Positions 30,399 through 37,766 of a DNA stretch of 64,000 nucleotides are shown one piece after another. Each line of letters begins with the position of its first letter. Position 1 is the first letter of the stretch. The stretch spans positions 1,488,001-1,552,000 of the forward strand of contig NZ_CP058316.1 of the NCBI RefSeq assembly GCF_013389665.1, written 5' to 3'. Below the pieces are notes generated by a model that ran no database searches, was not told the DNA's origin, and saw only the letters and a program-made list of their open reading frames with translations. A program made the position numbers and the translations under genes. This DNA comes from Microbacterium oleivorans (lineage in GTDB: Bacteria > Actinomycetota > Actinomycetes > Actinomycetales > Microbacteriaceae).

Positions 30399-30404
30399 TA
30401 TCGT
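30399..30404 (+). promoter_or_regulatory. -10 box of the type III PKS operon (leaderless)
   Basis: TATCGT 5 nt before ATG 30410; the only promoter-like hexamer before the three overlapping genes. Confidence 0.4.
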
Positions 30405-30409
30405 CAAGC

Positions 30410-31666
30410 ATGACCGCTCGAATCCTGTCGATCGGCACCGCCGTGCCGCCGGCCGTGCTCCGCCAAGACGCCGTGCGCGATCTCTTCGGCTCACAGCCCG
30501 GGATCGGCCGCCTGTCGCAGCGCCTCGTCCGCGCGGTGTTCGACGCCTCGGCCATCGAGACACGCCACACCGTGCTGACGGAGCTGGCGGACGCTCTCGA
30601 CCGGCGCTCCCGCGACGCCGCCACGGCCGATGCGGCGACCGGCGATGCGGCGAACGGCGACGAGACCGCGCCCGAGTCGCTGCCGGTGCTCTCGGATGCG
30701 GGTGCGCTGCTGTCGCCCACGACCGGCGCCCGCAATGACGCCTACATCGCGCTGGCCCCGGACCTGTTCGCCCGGGCGGCGCGGGAAGCGCTCGCCGCAG
30801 CATCCGTCGCCCCGTCCCAGGTGACGCACGTCGTCACGGTCTCGTGCACGGGCATGTTCGCGCCGGGACCGGATTATCGACTCGTCCGCGACCTCGGCCT
30901 TTCCACCGGGGTGGAGCGCTACCACCTGGGCTTCATCGGGTGCGCCGCGGCCGTTCCGGCGCTGCGCGCCGCGGCGCGGATGTGTGCGGCCGATCCGGAT
31001 GCCGTCGTCCTCGTCGTCTGCGCCGAGCTGTGCACGCTCCACTTCCGGGTCGCCGACGACCCCGACCAGATCCTCGCGGCCTCGTTGTTCGCCGACGGCG
31101 CCGCGGCGGCCGTCGTGAGCGCCGACCCGGCACGACGCGGCGAGCGCTGGCTCGACCTCGACCGCTTCGCCACCGTCGTCACCGACGAGGGCGAGCGCGA
31201 CATGACCTGGACCGTCGGTGACGCCGGTTTCGAGATGGTGCTCTCGGCCGAGGTCCCCCGCATCATCGGACGCGAGATCCGCGACGCCGTCGACGGGTTC
31301 GTCGGTGACGCCTCGGTCGACACCTGGGCCGTCCATCCCGGCGGCCGCAGCGTCGTCGACCGTGTCGAGGCCGGGCTCGGGCTCGCCCCCGATGCCCTGT
31401 CCGCCTCGCGCGCGGTCCTGCGCGATCACGGCAACATGTCGAGCGCGACGATCCTGTTCATCCTGCGATCGCTGCTGGCCGGCGAGGGTCTGCGCGACGG
31501 TGAGACGATCGCGACCCTCGCGTTCGGTCCGGGCCTGACCCTGGAGGCGGCCCTGCTGACCGCCGGAGTCTCGACCGGCGTCACGCCCGGGGCCGGCTCC
31601 GCCGAGGAACAGGATGCCGCCGAGCCCGCCGCCCGCCTCGCCGAGCCCGTCGCCTCGTGGACCTGA
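30410..31666 (+). CDS. type III polyketide synthase (SrsA/AgqA-like alkylresorcinol synthase)
   Basis: A 418-residue chalcone-synthase fold enzyme that should condense a fatty acyl starter with malonyl-type extenders. The Cys-His-Asn triad is intact: Cys178 in GFIGCAAAV, His309 in AVHPGGRS and Asn342 in DHGNMSSAT. Residues 67-110 hold an Ala/Asp/Gly-rich insertion and the last 25 residues form a disordered Ala/Glu tail, both unusual. It overlaps the methyltransferase gene by 10 nt. This three-gene order matches srsABC of Streptomyces griseus and agqABC of Actinoplanes. Product chain length is unknown. Confidence 0.9.
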   Translation: MTARILSIGTAVPPAVLRQDAVRDLFGSQPGIGRLSQRLVRAVFDASAIETRHTVLTELADALDRRSRDAATADAATGDAANGDETAPESLPVLSDAGALLSPTTGARNDAYIALAPDLFARAAREALAAASVAPSQVTHVVTVSCTGMFAPGPDYRLVRDLGLSTGVERYHLGFIGCAAAVPALRAAARMCAADPDAVVLVVCAELCTLHFRVADDPDQILAASLFADGAAAAVVSADPARRGERWLDLDRFATVVTDEGERDMTWTVGDAGFEMVLSAEVPRIIGREIRDAVDGFVGDASVDTWAVHPGGRSVVDRVEAGLGLAPDALSASRAVLRDHGNMSSATILFILRSLLAGEGLRDGETIATLAFGPGLTLEAALLTAGVSTGVTPGAGSAEEQDAAEPAARLAEPVASWT

Positions 31667-32355
31667 GGCGCCGCGACACCGAGCTGCGGGAGCTGATGGA
31701 CGACCCCGACTGCGACGCGGAGGCCCTGGCCCGGACCCTGCGCCGCTTCGACGCCGTCAATCGGGTCGTGAGCGGCTGGGGCGCGGTGTGGCGGCGCCAC
31801 CTGCGTCCCGCGCTCGCGCGGCTCGACCGCCCCGCCCGCGTGCTCGACATCGGCTCCGGCGGCGGTGACGTGACGGCGCGGCTGGCGCGCGCGGCCGACC
31901 GCGACGGTCTCCGCGTGGACTGGGTCGGCATCGACCCCGACCCGCGGGCGCTGGCGGTCGCGAACGCGCGCAGCCGACCCGGTCTGGAGTTCCGCAGCGC
32001 CGACTCCACGACGCTGCGGGCGAGCGGAGAGCGCTTCGACGCCGTGATCTCCAACCACGTGCTCCACCACCTCGGCGATACCGAGCTGCCGAGCTTCCTC
32101 GACGACTCGCGGGCCCTCACCGACGGCATCGTGCTGCACGCCGACATCGAGCGGAGTCGGACGGCGTACGCGCTGTACGCGGCGGGCATCCTGCCCCTGC
32201 AACACGGGACGTTCCTCCGCACCGACGGACTGCGCTCGATCCGCCGCAGCTATCGGGCTCCCGAGCTGCGGGCTGAGCTGGCCTCCCAGGGCCCGTGGCA
32301 TGTGCTGCGTCCGGCACCGTTTCGCGTGCTCGCGGTGGGGTCGGGTCGTGCCTGA
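31657..32355 (+). CDS. class I SAM methyltransferase of the PKS operon (SrsB/AgqB-like)
   Basis: A 232-residue Rossmann methyltransferase. SAM motif I is VLDIGSGGGDV at about 62-72, and the acidic GIDPDPRAL and NHVLHHLGD segments follow. GTG 31657 overlaps the PKS end by 10 nt and the stop overlaps the monooxygenase start by 8 nt, so translation is coupled. By position and family it should methylate the resorcinol or hydroquinone product. O- versus C-methylation is not decided by sequence. Confidence 0.87.
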   Translation: MDLRRRDTELRELMDDPDCDAEALARTLRRFDAVNRVVSGWGAVWRRHLRPALARLDRPARVLDIGSGGGDVTARLARAADRDGLRVDWVGIDPDPRALAVANARSRPGLEFRSADSTTLRASGERFDAVISNHVLHHLGDTELPSFLDDSRALTDGIVLHADIERSRTAYALYAAGILPLQHGTFLRTDGLRSIRRSYRAPELRAELASQGPWHVLRPAPFRVLAVGSGRA

Positions 32356-33529
32356 GGTCATCGTCGTCGGAGCGGGACCCGTGGGAATGCTGCTGGCCGC
32401 CGAGCTGGCACGCCGCGACGTGGACGTGGAGGTGGTCGAGCGCCGCGCGCAGGGCGGCGGCGGATCGCGGGCGATCGGTCTTCACGCCCCCGTCCTCGCG
32501 GCGCTCGAGGAGGGCGGCGCGACCGACCGCATCCTCGCGCGGGCGGTGCGGGTGTCGCGCGGCGAGGCTCGCAGCGACGGCCGCCTGCTCGGCGTCGTGC
32601 GGTTCGACCGCCTGTCGGTGCGGCATCCCTACGTCGCGACGCTGCCGCAGGCGCTCACCGAGTCGGCTCTCGCCGTCGGAGCTCCCGAACCCCAGCGCGG
32701 CACGACGGTGAGTCGGGTGCGTGTGGGCATGGACGCGGTGCGCCTCGACGCGTCCGATCCCCGCGGCGAGCGCGAGCTCTCCGCCCCCATCGTGGTCGTC
32801 GCCGCAGGCGTCGGCGCGCGCGACCTGGTCTTCCGTCCGGACGCGCTCGGACGCACGAGCTACCCCGACCGCTACCTGATGAGCGACACCGACGTCGCGC
32901 CTCGCGAGGACGCCGAGACCGCCGTGGTGCACCTGGCCGCGGGGGGCGTGCTGGAGTCGTTCCCGCTGCCGGGCGGACGCCGGAGGTTCGTGGCCTGGGA
33001 CGCCGGCGACCCGCGCACCACCGCCGCCGGCGGCGCGGGCGGCGCGACGGGGATCGACGAGCCCGCGGCGCGGCTCGAGCGCCTGCGTGCGGCGCTCCGG
33101 GAACGGGGCGAAGCCGCGGCGGCCGACACGGTGACGGCGGCGACCGGCTTCCGCGTCCGGCGGGTGCTGGCGCCCGCGATGCGGCGGGGCCGGCTCGCCG
33201 TCATCGGCGACAGCGCCCACGAGATCAGCCCGATCGGCGGGCAGGGCATGAACCTGGGCCTCCTGGATGCCGCGACGCTCGCTCCCCTGCTCGCCGCCTG
33301 GGTCCGGACGGGGCGGGAGCCCGCGGCGGCCCTCGCGCGGTGGGAGCGCGACCGCCTCCGCTCGGCCCGCATCGCCGGTCGCATGGCGGCGGTCAACATG
33401 CGGCTCGGACGACCGGTGAGCGCCGCGACACACGCGCTGCGAACGCGCACGCTGGGCGCGGCTCTCGCAGCCACCGGCTCGCTCGTCCCCCGCGCCTACG
33501 CCATGGGGCTCGACACCGCCGCGCGCTGA
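32348..33529 (+). CDS. FAD-dependent aromatic monooxygenase of the PKS operon (SrsC/AgqC-like)
   Basis: A 393-residue flavoprotein hydroxylase of the PHBH class. The FAD dinucleotide motif is VVGAGPVGM near the N-terminus and the ribityl-binding GD motif is GDSAHEISPIGGQGMNLGL. It would hydroxylate the phenolic lipid to a hydroquinone that can oxidise to a quinone. GTG 32348 overlaps the methyltransferase stop. The gene ends 27 nt from the convergent UbiA gene. Confidence 0.88.
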   Translation: MPEVIVVGAGPVGMLLAAELARRDVDVEVVERRAQGGGGSRAIGLHAPVLAALEEGGATDRILARAVRVSRGEARSDGRLLGVVRFDRLSVRHPYVATLPQALTESALAVGAPEPQRGTTVSRVRVGMDAVRLDASDPRGERELSAPIVVVAAGVGARDLVFRPDALGRTSYPDRYLMSDTDVAPREDAETAVVHLAAGGVLESFPLPGGRRRFVAWDAGDPRTTAAGGAGGATGIDEPAARLERLRAALRERGEAAAADTVTAATGFRVRRVLAPAMRRGRLAVIGDSAHEISPIGGQGMNLGLLDAATLAPLLAAWVRTGREPAAALARWERDRLRSARIAGRMAAVNMRLGRPVSAATHALRTRTLGAALAATGSLVPRAYAMGLDTAAR

Positions 33530-33556
33530 CCCCGCCGCCGGGTGTCCGCGCGCGGG

Positions 33557-34384
33557 CTACGCGGCGAGGGCTCCCGCGGTTGCGACCAGTTGCGCGGCCA
33601 GCAGCAGGGCCGAGGCCATGACGAGGCGGAATCCCGTCCGATCGGGCCCGCGCCGCCGCATCCGCACGATCACCGCCGCGGCCAGCAGCAGCACCGCGAC
33701 GAAGAAGATCCAGGCCAGCGGGCCTCCGGCACCACCGCCGACCATGACGGAGACGGCTGCGACGACGATCCCGGCGACGGCGGCGAAGACCGAGGCGGTG
33801 GCGCCGAGGCGGTGCGGCAGGCCGCGGACGCCGGTGCGGCGGTCGTCGTCGAGATCGGGCAGCACGTTCGTGAGGTGCACGGCGGCGCCGAGGGCGGCAC
33901 CGGCGACCGCCGCGAACGGCGCGGCGAGCACGGGCTCCGGAGCCGACAGCGTGGCGAGCGAGGGGAAGAGTCCGAAGCTGACGAGGAACGGGACCACCGA
34001 CACCGCGGTCGCCTTGAGACCGAGGTTGTACGCCCACGCCGACACGATGGTGACGGCGTGGGCGAGCAGCATCCCCCAGCCGAGCACCGACGACAGCGCC
34101 AGAGCGATCACGACGGAGCCGATCGCAGCGAACCACGCCGTGCGATTCGACACCTCGCCTCGCACGAGCGGCTTGTCGCGACGCCCGACCGCCCGGTCGC
34201 GCTCGCGGTCGATGGTGTCGTTGGAGATGCCGATGGAGAGCTGCCCGAAGAAGACGGATGCCACGAGCACGGCGACCCGCCAGAACTCGAGCCCCGCGGC
34301 GAGGCCGAGCGCGAGCGACAGCGCCGTGACGACGAGGGCGGGCCCGGGATGGGAGGCGCCCCACAGGGCCCGCACGGTACGCAT
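33557..34384 (-). CDS. UbiA-family prenyltransferase
   Basis: A 275-residue integral membrane enzyme with about eight TM helices. Both Asp-rich motifs for Mg-prenyl diphosphate are present: NDTIDRERD (55-63) and PDLDDD (176-181). It transfers a prenyl chain to an aromatic or quinol acceptor. Its convergent position next to the PKS operon matches agqD, which prenylates alkylhydroquinones. A housekeeping role, as in MenA, is possible, but no menaquinone genes are near. The start lies 6 nt after GAGCAT, a weak -10. Confidence 0.88.
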   Translation of the reverse strand: MRTVRALWGASHPGPALVVTALSLALGLAAGLEFWRVAVLVASVFFGQLSIGISNDTIDRERDRAVGRRDKPLVRGEVSNRTAWFAAIGSVVIALALSSVLGWGMLLAHAVTIVSAWAYNLGLKATAVSVVPFLVSFGLFPSLATLSAPEPVLAAPFAAVAGAALGAAVHLTNVLPDLDDDRRTGVRGLPHRLGATASVFAAVAGIVVAAVSVMVGGGAGGPLAWIFFVAVLLLAAAVIVRMRRRGPDRTGFRLVMASALLLAAQLVATAGALAA

Positions 34385-34456: not shown

Positions 34457-36679
34457 TCAGTCGTCGAGCAGCTCGGCCTCGATCACATCGTCGTCGGGGT
34501 CGTCGCCGCGGCTCCCGCCGGCGGGCGCGCCCGCACTCGTCAGCACGAGCGACGAGCCGTCGGCCGCGACATCCACCCGCACGACGTCGCCGTCGTGCAC
34601 ACCACCCGAGAGGATCGCCATGGCGAGGCGATCCTGGATCTCGGACTGGATGAGCCGGCGCAGCGGGCGGGCCCCGTACACCGGGTCGTAGCCCCGCTCG
34701 GCGAGCCAGGCACGAGCGTCGGGGGTCACCGCCAACGCGAGACGGCGGTCCTTGAGGCGGCGCTGGAGGACATCGACCGAGAGCTCGACGATCTGCGCGA
34801 GGTCGTCCTGGCTGAGCGCCTCGAACATGACGGTGTCGTCGAGCCGGTTGAGGAACTCCGGCCGGAACGCCTGGCGCAGCAGGATCTGCACCTGTTCCCG
34901 CTTCTGCTCCAGGCTCAGCGTCGGGTCGATGAGGATCGGCGATCCGAGGTTGGAGGTGAGAATCAGGATGACGTTGCGGAAGTCGACCGTCCGGCCCTGG
35001 CCATCGGTGAGCCGGCCGTCGTCCATGACCTGCAGCAGCACGTCGAAGACCTCGGGATGGGCCTTCTCGACCTCGTCGAGCAGCACGACCGAGTACGGGC
35101 GTCGCCGGACCGCCTCGGTCAGCTGACCGCCCTGCTCGTACCCGATGTACCCGGGAGGGGCGCCGACGAGCCGCGACACGGAGTGCTTCTCGCCGTACTC
35201 CGACATGTCGATCCGGATCATCGCGTGCTCGTCGTCGAACAGGAACTCCGCCAGCGCCTTGGCCAGTTCGGTCTTGCCGACGCCGGTGGGGCCCAGGAAC
35301 AGGAACGATCCGGTCGGCCGGTTCGGGTCGCTGATCCCCGCGCGCGAGCGCCGCACGGCGTCCGCGACGGCCTTCACGGCGACCTTCTGCCCGATGAGGC
35401 GCTTGCCGAGCTCCGACTCCAGCCGCACGAGCTTCTCGGTCTCGCCCTGCAGCAACCGGCCGACGGGGATGCCCGTCCACGCCGCGATGACCGAGGCGAT
35501 GTCCTCATCGGTGACCTGGTCGTTCACCATCCGCTCCGGACCGTCGACGGCCGTCTCGGCACGTTCGGCCTCGACCACCTCGCGCTCGAGCGCCGGGATC
35601 TCGGCGTACAGCAGCCGCGAGGCCATCTCGAGGTTCCCCTCGCGCTGCGCGCGCTCGGCCTCGACGCGTGCGGCATCCAGGCGGGTCTTCAGATCGCCGA
35701 CGCGGTTGAGCGACGCACGCTCGCGCTCCCATCGCGCCTGCAGGTCGTCGAGCTTGTGCTGTTCGTCCTTCAGCGACGCACGCAGGGTCTCCAGACGCTC
35801 GCGCGACGCGGCATCCTTCTCCTTCTTCAGCGCGAGCTCCTCGAGCTTCAGCCGATCGACGTGACGGCGCAGCTCATCGATCTCGAGTGGCGCCGAGTCG
35901 ATCTCCATGCGCAGCCGCGACGCGGCCTCGTCGATGAGGTCGATCGCCTTGTCGGGCAGCTGCCGGGCCGGGATGTACCGGTTCGAGAGGGATGCCGCGG
36001 CCACGAGCGCGCCGTCGGCGATCGCCACCTTGTGGTGCGCCTCGTAGCGCTCCTTGAGCCCGCGGAGGATCGCGATCGTGTCCTCGACGCTCGGTTCGCC
36101 GACGTAGACCTGCTGGAAGCGCCGCTCGAGAGCGGCATCCTTCTCGATGAACTCGCGGTACTCGTCGAGGGTCGTCGCGCCGATGAGGCGCAGCTCGCCG
36201 CGGGCGAGCATGGGCTTGAGCATGTTCGACGCCGCGACGGACCCCTCACCGCCCCCGGCACCCATGAGCACGTGCAGCTCGTCGATGAAGGTGATGATCC
36301 GGCCGTCCGACTCGGTGATCTCCTTGAGCACGCTCTTCAGGCGCTCCTCGAACTGGCCGCGGTACATGGCACCGGCGACGAGGGCGGAGATGTCGAGCGA
36401 GACGAGCTCCTTGTTCTTCAGGCTCTCGGCGACGTCGCCGGCGACGATGCGCTGGGCGAGGCCCTCGACGACGGCGGTCTTGCCGACGCCGGGCTCGCCG
36501 ATGAGGACGGGGTTGTTCTTGGTTCGGCGGGTGAGCACCTGGCTGACCCGGCGGATCTCGCCGTCGCGCCCGATGACGGGGTCGAGCTTGCCCTGGCGGG
36601 CACGGTCGGTGAGGTTGATGCCGAACTGCTCGAGGGCGCTGCGCGCGTCCTCCTGCCCCGGCTGCTGCGTCGCGTTCAT
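34457..36679 (-). CDS. clpB: ATP-dependent disaggregase ClpB, form lacking the N-terminal domain
   Basis: A 740-residue AAA+ hexamer that extracts proteins from aggregates with DnaK. NBD1 has Walker [10 protein letters not shown], then comes the coiled M-domain (about 250-375), then NBD2 with GPTGVGKTE. The start ATG 36679 follows CAGGAGACTC, and the protein begins where the short E. coli ClpB isoform begins, so the Clp N domain of about 140 residues is absent. The C-terminus is acidic ([15 protein letters not shown]). The M-domain rules out ClpC. A HAIR operator sits 25-51 nt before the start. Confidence 0.95.
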
Positions 36680-36703
36680 GAGTCTCCTGAATTCTCTCGG
36701 CTC

Positions 36704-36730
36704 AAACTTGAGCCTGAATGACTCAAGTTT
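36704..36730 (-). promoter_or_regulatory. HAIR (HspR) operator of clpB
   Basis: AAACTTGAG and CTCAAGTTT arms. The core CTTGAGC-N7-ACTCAAG matches the HAIR consensus CTTGAGT-N7-ACTCAAG in 13 of 14 positions. A minus-strand TAAACT (36726-36731) overlapping it is a likely -10 box, so HspR binding would block RNA polymerase. Confidence 0.88.
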
Positions 36731-36743
36731 AGCATCGCGCGGA

Positions 36744-37766
36744 TCAGGATGCCACGGGTGCCGCGTGCAGCTCGGCCAGACGATGGTCTCCGCCGCCGGA
36801 CGCCGCGACCGCCTCGTCGGTGCAGGCGAATCGCGCCCGATACGCCGACGGGCTGAGACCCAGGGCTCGGGCGAAGTTCTGGCGCAGCACCGATGCCGAA
36901 CCGAAGCCGCTGTCGGCGGCGACCTGGTCGAGCGCGAGATCGGTCTGCTCGAGCAGACGCTGAGCCCGGAGGATGCGCTGACGCCCGAGCCAGGCCGCGG
37001 GCGTCGTTCCGTAGTCCGCCTTGAACCGCCGCGCGAACGTGCGCGGCGACATGTGCGCCCGGGCGGCGAGCAGGTCGACGGAGAGGTCGAGGTCGAGGTT
37101 CTCCACCATCCAGTCGGCGATCGGGGTGAGCGAGAGCGAGGACGCGTCGGGCAGCGGCTTGGCGATGAACTGGGCCTGCCCACCGTCGCGCTGCGGTGCG
37201 ACGACCATGCGCCGCGCGATCGTGTTGGCAGCCTCGGCGCCGAGTTCGATGCGCAGCAGGTGCAGGCACGCGTCGAGGCCCGCAGCCGTGCCGGCACTCG
37301 TGATGATGCGATCCGATTGGACATAGAGGACCGCCGGGTCGACTTCGATCTGCGGATACATCTGCGCCATCGTCTCGGCGTAGCGCCAGTGGGTCGTCGC
37401 GCGCTTGCCGTCGAGCACGCCCGCGGCCGCGACGACGAACGATCCGCTGCAGACCGTCAGCACCCAGGCGCCGCGCTCGACCGCACGGCGGACGACCGCG
37501 CTCACCCGTTCGTCGACGTGGTTCCACGCACTCCGCGGGATCGGGGTGATCACGACGAGATCGGCCTCGTCGGCGAACCCGAGATCGCTCTCGACGTTGA
37601 TCGAGAAGCCCATGTTGGCCGGCACAACCCCCGGGTCCGGAGCGACGATGCGGAAGTCGAAGTTCGGGATGCCGTCGTCGGATCGGTCGAGACCGAAGGC
37701 CTCGCACGCGAGTCCGAACTCGAACGGGGCGAAACCCGGCTGGACGATGCAGGCGACGGAGTGCAT
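36744..37766 (-). CDS. GlxA-type AraC-family regulator with DJ-1/PfpI domain
   Basis: A 340-residue regulator. The N-terminal DJ-1/PfpI-like domain (about 1-190) keeps a Cys at 106 in TVCSGS. The C-terminal AraC DNA-binding domain (about 215-312) has both HTH motifs, ending in the typical [12 protein letters not shown]. Such proteins sense small molecules with the DJ-1 pocket, but the ligand is unknown. ATG 37766 is backed by an AGGA site. It lies upstream of clpB on the same strand, but clpB has its own promoter. Confidence 0.9.

Follow-up and report, generated by a model that had tools for sequence, protein, structure and literature searches.

The question raised by the locus

Whether a prenyltransferase gene lying tail-to-tail with a polyketide synthase operon works on the product of that operon is the question raised by a locus of Microbacterium oleivorans. 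The locus lies in a stretch of 64,000 nucleotides (contig NZ_CP058316.1, positions 1,488,001 to 1,552,000; hereafter the window, with positions counted from its first letter), within a genome of one contig of 3.35 Mb. It consists of genes for a type III polyketide synthase (PKS), a class I S-adenosylmethionine (SAM) methyltransferase, a p-hydroxybenzoate hydroxylase (PHBH)-type FAD-dependent monooxygenase and, on the other strand, a UbiA-family prenyltransferase. We consider it probable (roughly 0.6) that the four genes encode one phenolic-lipid pathway, whose product, as predicted from sequence, would be a membrane phenol bearing methyl, hydroxyl and prenyl groups. The simplest account of the data is a pathway of this kind ending in prenylation, with a UbiA inherited within the family and a PKS module replaced once.

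The four-gene stretch was confirmed at positions 30410-34384 (Table 1). An earlier reading made from the letters of the window (the sequence-only reading) had described these genes, the kinds of enzyme that they encode, overlaps of 8-10 nt and a convergent gap of 27 nt, and all of this stood, the Pfam matches of the four proteins agreeing with it and exceeding curated cut-offs. Only the PKS start that it gave, 30399, was found to be out of frame, the ATG being at 30410. The start of the methyltransferase gene overlaps the end of the PKS gene by 10 nt and the monooxygenase gene overlaps that of the methyltransferase by 8 nt; the three genes are probably carried on one transcript, and the UbiA gene would be transcribed from the opposite strand. 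The catalytic triad proposed for the PKS falls at exactly the claimed residues in the alignment, and both Asp-rich motifs claimed for UbiA were recovered. A bidirectional terminator shared by the convergent genes was also considered and rejected, as the hairpin in the gap is no stronger than those of shuffled sequences (z of -0.15 and -0.27).

Table 1. Features of the locus, in positions of the window.
Feature	Positions	Strand	Properties
Type III polyketide synthase	30410..31666	+	418 aa, ATG start; C178-H309-N342 triad, W267; chalcone/stilbene synthase N and C domains
Class I SAM methyltransferase	31657..32355	+	232 aa, GTG start; Methyltransf_25 and others; NCBIfam NF004851 (PRK06202) above cut-off
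PHBH-type FAD-dependent monooxygenase	32348..33529	+	393 aa, GTG start; FAD_binding_3
Stop-to-stop gap between convergent genes	33530..33556	.	27 nt
UbiA-family prenyltransferase	33557..34384	-	275 aa; NDxxDxxxD and second Asp-rich motif; PF01040

Conservation of the locus in Microbacterium

The loci used for motif counts and trees were picked by hand and not at random, in such a way that the 24 loci compared (the window and 23 relatives) were chosen as stretches complete for the locus, and all four genes are accordingly present in 24 of 24. The PKS triad, the SAM motif, the GxGPxG motif and both UbiA motifs are also kept in every one of them, and we do not regard the arrangement as a product of chance; the monooxygenase pattern GD[AS]AH is met in only 12, and the 8-nt overlap between the monooxygenase and methyltransferase genes is found in 21. 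Because the stop-to-stop gap varies from -24 to 256 nt, it is the convergent order that is kept, and not the spacing. The window PKS is longer than most of its 23 relatives (367-410 aa, and one of 444) and has an Ala-rich stretch at residues 57-97, approximately.

A PKS match was found in 161 of 198 Microbacterium genomes (in one of them, G010, only at 9.4e-5), and a UbiA ortholog scoring above 200 bits in 92, all of which have a PKS match (Fisher test, 1.2e-12, with 160 PKS genomes counted). Gene placement was compared for the best 126 PKS rows among the 161 genomes, which leaves one UbiA genome (G090) unplaced. In the comparison of synteny that the sequence-only reading had called for, UbiA is near the PKS gene (<5 kb) and convergent with it in 83 of the 91 placed genomes; in four it is convergent at 9-20 kb, in two near on the same strand, and in two on a different contig.

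The surroundings of the locus were inspected in 11 loci with stretches of 8-12 kb, and a nitroreductase and ClpB gene both flank it in only two of them (L105 and L106); in another (L097) a ClpB match has its edge some 3 kb past the operon. One fixed genomic site is thus not established from these short flanks. In the window, a ClpB-like open reading frame occupies 34457-37324 on the minus strand, and the ClpB model is matched only from position 143 of its 853, the N-terminal part being unmatched.

Identity of the UbiA prenyltransferase

By its sequence, the window UbiA is a member of a lineage that accompanies type III PKSs. Two trees group it with UbiAs linked to such synthases, and the UbiAs of window, srs and agq types (loci of the last two types are described below) align over their full length, 39 columns being invariant when six sequences are compared. 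In the first of the trees, which includes long-branched paralogs and has an unreliable root, the grouping of window-type UbiAs with Microbacteriaceae UbiAs unlinked to a PKS has a support of only 88/92.

A housekeeping menaquinone or haem enzyme that lies next to the operon by chance would be another explanation for the gene, and some database relatives of the window UbiA are indeed named 1,4-dihydroxy-2-naphthoate prenyltransferase. However, the host genome has five UbiA-family genes, and the other four are a MenA, a haem O synthase and the PRK13105 and PRK13595 prenyltransferases, each above its cut-off, whereas the window UbiA falls below every NCBIfam equivalog cut-off shown, those of MenA and haem O synthase included. 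The grouping with MenA or haem enzymes that the sequence-only reading had named as the result that would speak against it did not appear, the window UbiA being placed with the PKS-linked ones (the four paralogs stand on very long branches in one tree). A housekeeping role was thus rejected, and we regard it as extremely improbable.

Association of UbiA with type III PKSs across Microbacteriaceae

The same association was studied in 199 Microbacteriaceae genomes, in which PKS and UbiA were both counted from 80 bits up (a level that UbiA reaches in 106 genomes, out of 122 in which it has a match at all). Three classes of genomes were distinguished: those with a PKS of srs type, those whose type III PKS is of another kind, as judged by score to the srs-type query and not by tree, and those in which no PKS match exceeds 80 bits. 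As 152 of the 199 genomes have a match of some sort at E <= 0.001, 9 of the 56 genomes in the last class have a weak one. UbiA was found in 68/72 genomes of the srs type; the two genes are on separate contigs in 36 of these, separated by over 6 kb in 29 and near on the same strand in 3. In the class with a different type III PKS, UbiA was found in 32/71 genomes: in 21, that of the window among them, it is near the PKS and convergent with it, in 3 it is near and divergent, and in 8 it is not adjacent. Taken together, 100/143 genomes with a type III PKS have UbiA, compared with 6/56 without (Fisher test, 1.4e-14). When one genome per genus was kept, the figures were 34/34 for the srs type, 13/29 for other type III PKSs and 2/22 for none, that is, 47/63 with any type III PKS against 2/22 without (Fisher test, 7e-8).

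UbiAs that stand alone follow a similar pattern. For three Microbacteriaceae UbiAs with no PKS nearby, an srs-type PKS is found elsewhere in each genome; the same is true for two of three genomes with UbiA-only loci in other families, the third, a Streptomyces, having only a 33% match. In a stretch from Catellatospora tritici (L196), UbiA is near genes that by eye resemble radA and carD, an arrangement shared with agq/los loci; the stretch gave no match to a type III PKS or a methyltransferase, and the genome has an srs-type PKS at another place. UbiA and a non-srs type III PKS are arranged divergently, with about 310-315 bases between the matches, in three genomes of a single genus (G728, G795 and G847), in contrast to the mostly convergent pairs. 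In three small genomes of 1.3-1.8 Mb (G709, G771 and G780), the srs-type PKS and UbiA are kept close on the same strand, which suggests that the phenolic lipid matters even under genome reduction.

Several of these observations weigh against a single four-gene pathway. UbiA is absent from 35 of the 126 Microbacterium PKS genomes compared and from 39 of the 71 genomes of the family with a non-srs type III PKS, it occurs away from any PKS, and it is present in 6 of the 56 genomes counted as PKS-less, five of these six being 66-90% complete. Besides, the Fisher tests ignore kinship, a defect that taking one genome per genus only lessens. These data could be explained if the three-gene operon alone made a methylated and hydroxylated alkylresorcinol or quinone, and UbiA prenylated something else and were a neighbour by history. 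This we hold to be rather unlikely, as co-occurrence is strong even without adjacency, as in the srs-type genomes and genera, and the convergent adjacency of UbiA and PKS is conserved.

The type III PKS and its ring type

Type III PKSs share one fold, and for the nature of the ring we relied on the phylogeny of the window PKS and on one residue. In a tree of 70 rows (midpoint root), a single clade holds the window-type PKSs, placed next to those of agq/los type and far from the srs type; the srs/PKS11-type clade is set apart from the window type with 100/100 support (SrsA itself is outside the tree), and the window-type PKSs with a UbiA form a subclade (99/96). A type III PKS from another actinobacterial family (L067, genome G314) takes a long branch beside the window-type clade; no tailoring-gene or UbiA match was found in its stretch.

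W267 is present in all window-type rows (overlapping sets of 11, 11, 24 and 54), and the same position is Trp in 24/24 rows of agq/los type, 19/20 of srs type and 3/4 others. Among the reference PKSs, it is Trp in PKS11 (W230) and Steely1, Tyr in tetrahydroxynaphthalene (THN) synthase, Leu in PKS18 and 2-pyrone synthase, and Gly in chalcone synthase. According to PMC5916927, ArsB requires this Trp, equated here with W267 through the alignment to PKS11, in order to form resorcinols, and the residue is conserved in FtpA, SrsA, PKS10 and PKS11. The residue and the position of the clade beside the agq/los type support the alkylresorcinol-type PKS put forward by the sequence-only reading.

On the other side, PKS11, with the same Trp, carries the name of an alpha-pyrone synthase in PDB, so W267 is supportive and not decisive for resorcinols. 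The PKS could then make alkylpyrones, to be methylated and oxidised later. We find this improbable, since PKS18 and 2-pyrone synthase have Leu where the window PKS has Trp, the neighbouring agq/los-type clade contains the Phytohabitans flavus locus that fits the agqA ortholog published in PMC7692728 (the loseolamycin producer is outside the tree), and a PHBH-type hydroxylase suits a phenol as substrate. A THN-type enzyme, one of two alternatives that the sequence-only reading had named as speaking against its own, is disfavoured in part: THN synthase has Tyr at the position of W267 and is absent from the best 60 of 108 PDB matches to the window PKS, but it was in no tree. Among the PDB matches listed, Steely1 is the closest and plant chalcone synthases come next. 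DpgA, the only type III PKS model matched in NCBIfam, was rejected as an identity (168 bits, with a cut-off of 425).

Tailoring enzymes and proposed pathway

The NCBIfam model passed by the window methyltransferase, NF004851, is described only as a hypothetical protein, and the enzyme has only weak matches in PDB. For the monooxygenase, the closest PDB entries, at low similarity, are oxygenases of aromatic polyketides together with PHBH-like enzymes.

In the pathway that we propose, the PKS would condense a fatty acyl-CoA with three malonyl-CoA into an alkylresorcinol ring, as its family, clade and W267 indicate. The FAD monooxygenase, judging by its family, would hydroxylate the ring to give a hydroquinone or quinone. 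The methyltransferase would methylate either an oxygen or a carbon, both outcomes being left because each has been reported for related operons: SrsB is called, reportedly in the title of a paper, a decarboxylative O-methyltransferase, and according to the part of PMC10896814 on these enzymes, HidA O-methylates and the Gimesia maris enzyme probably C-methylates. Finally, from its lineage, motifs and co-occurrence, UbiA may prenylate the ring itself or a phenolic oxygen. A geranyl donor, as in agq, is supported by nothing in the data from the window.

A possible change of partner

The history of the prenyltransferase was analysed in a tree of 56 UbiA rows (midpoint root; the fragmentary L242 was left out). 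Its convergent group comprised 15 of the 21 near-convergent genomes of the family survey (the window being one of the 21), seven further Microbacterium genomes and the window. The Microbacteriaceae UbiAs group together (100/99). Within them, a single clade (100/98) holds the 23 convergent ones and is nested among srs-associated UbiAs, the enclosing group having 96/90. This nesting suggests an inherited prenyltransferase that switched its PKS partner; the direction of the swap, with srs first, depends on the root of the tree.

On this basis, it is conceivable, at somewhat less than even odds, that a family-inherited UbiA, usually not beside its srs-type PKS, switched once to a non-orthologous operon, tail-to-tail. 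As the replacement operon is non-orthologous, the acceptor of UbiA should be the common resorcinol-derived core, and prenylated phenolic lipids would then be a long-standing envelope lipid of Microbacteriaceae, built from interchangeable modules.

Type III PKS clusters have already been noted in Microbacterium by genome mining, as passages of PMC9998209 and PMC11842320 state. Among the full-text matches listed, which are mostly from non-subscription literature, no account was found of the four-gene Microbacterium locus or of the family-wide link with UbiA. The kind of pathway is already known, and it is the architecture and the partner swap that look new. If our reading is true, a large genus commonly makes a prenylated phenolic lipid still uncharacterised, and loci gathered under one general label would be three tailoring sets joined by one prenyltransferase lineage. 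The locus also bears on whether a membrane prenyltransferase keeps its substrate while its polyketide synthase is replaced, and it cautions that gene-cluster similarity alone is a poor basis for product names.

Comparison with known clusters

The window was compared with known systems through proxy loci, SrsA, AgqA and HidC themselves not being among the sequences. The sequence-only reading had matched the first three genes, in order, to srsABC of Streptomyces griseus, represented here by srs-type loci such as that of S. fildesensis (L207), a species reported with a complete alkylresorcinol cluster (part of PMC6522549). The likeness holds by function (PKS, methyltransferase and monooxygenase), and in many of the srs-type loci fetched a UbiA gene lies nearby as well, often divergent from the PKS. 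However, in these loci the PKS is followed by a methyltransferase of the isoprenylcysteine carboxyl methyltransferase (ICMT) family (PF04140 in the two annotated), which adjoins the PKS in 15/15 further srs-type loci, two of these having both as one gene; in a published srs cluster of Microbacteriaceae, srsB is likewise named as an ICMT (in the section concerned of PMC6669644). The window methyltransferase is of class I, no match to the ICMT family was found anywhere in the host genome, and the PKS belongs to another clade, so the equation with srsABC was abandoned. The window monooxygenase, the putative counterpart of SrsC, carries a FAD_binding_3 domain.

The second match was to agqABCD of Actinoplanes missouriensis, which makes alkyl-O-dihydrogeranyl-methoxyhydroquinones. 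Among the actinobacterial loci fetched, those of agq/los type bring together a PKS, a methyltransferase of class I and a UbiA, and the Phytohabitans flavus locus L161 has a PKS, an acyl-CoA-dehydrogenase-family flavoenzyme (Acyl-CoA_dh domains), a methyltransferase and, on the other strand, a UbiA; its position and gene content fit the agq ortholog locus published in PMC7692728, as far as the part dealing with it goes. Like the window, it joins a PKS to a class I methyltransferase and a flavoenzyme, its UbiA belongs to the lineage of the window UbiA, and the agq-type PKS clade adjoins that of the window type (AgqA itself is outside the tree). The match claimed by the sequence-only reading stands by function only, as the flavoenzyme of L161 is not PHBH-type, its UbiA is divergent and at the far end from the PKS, and its methyltransferase is distant (the L083 relative of that enzyme is 31% identical to that of the window over 101 aa). 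Membership in agq was thus rejected as well, the window having its own PKS clade and a FAD_binding_3 flavoenzyme. The loseolamycin cluster of Micromonospora endolithica also brings together UbiA, methyltransferase and type III PKS, but with an acyl-CoA dehydrogenase where the window has a monooxygenase, that is, the same four gene kinds as L161 (from the cluster description in PMC7587189).

Other systems share the three-gene set for modified alkylresorcinols, likened here by description: hidABC of cyanobacteria and a planctomycete methyltransferase-oxidoreductase-PKS operon (in parts of PMC10896814 and PMC8086630). In the part of PMC8086630 on the hid operon, two gene orders are reported, the commoner unlike that of the window and the other (PKS, methyltransferase, oxidoreductase) the same, and a prenyltransferase is mentioned there in one cyanobacterial cluster only. 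Compared with srs and agq, the window set looks like a third, separately assembled architecture of phenolic-lipid genes.

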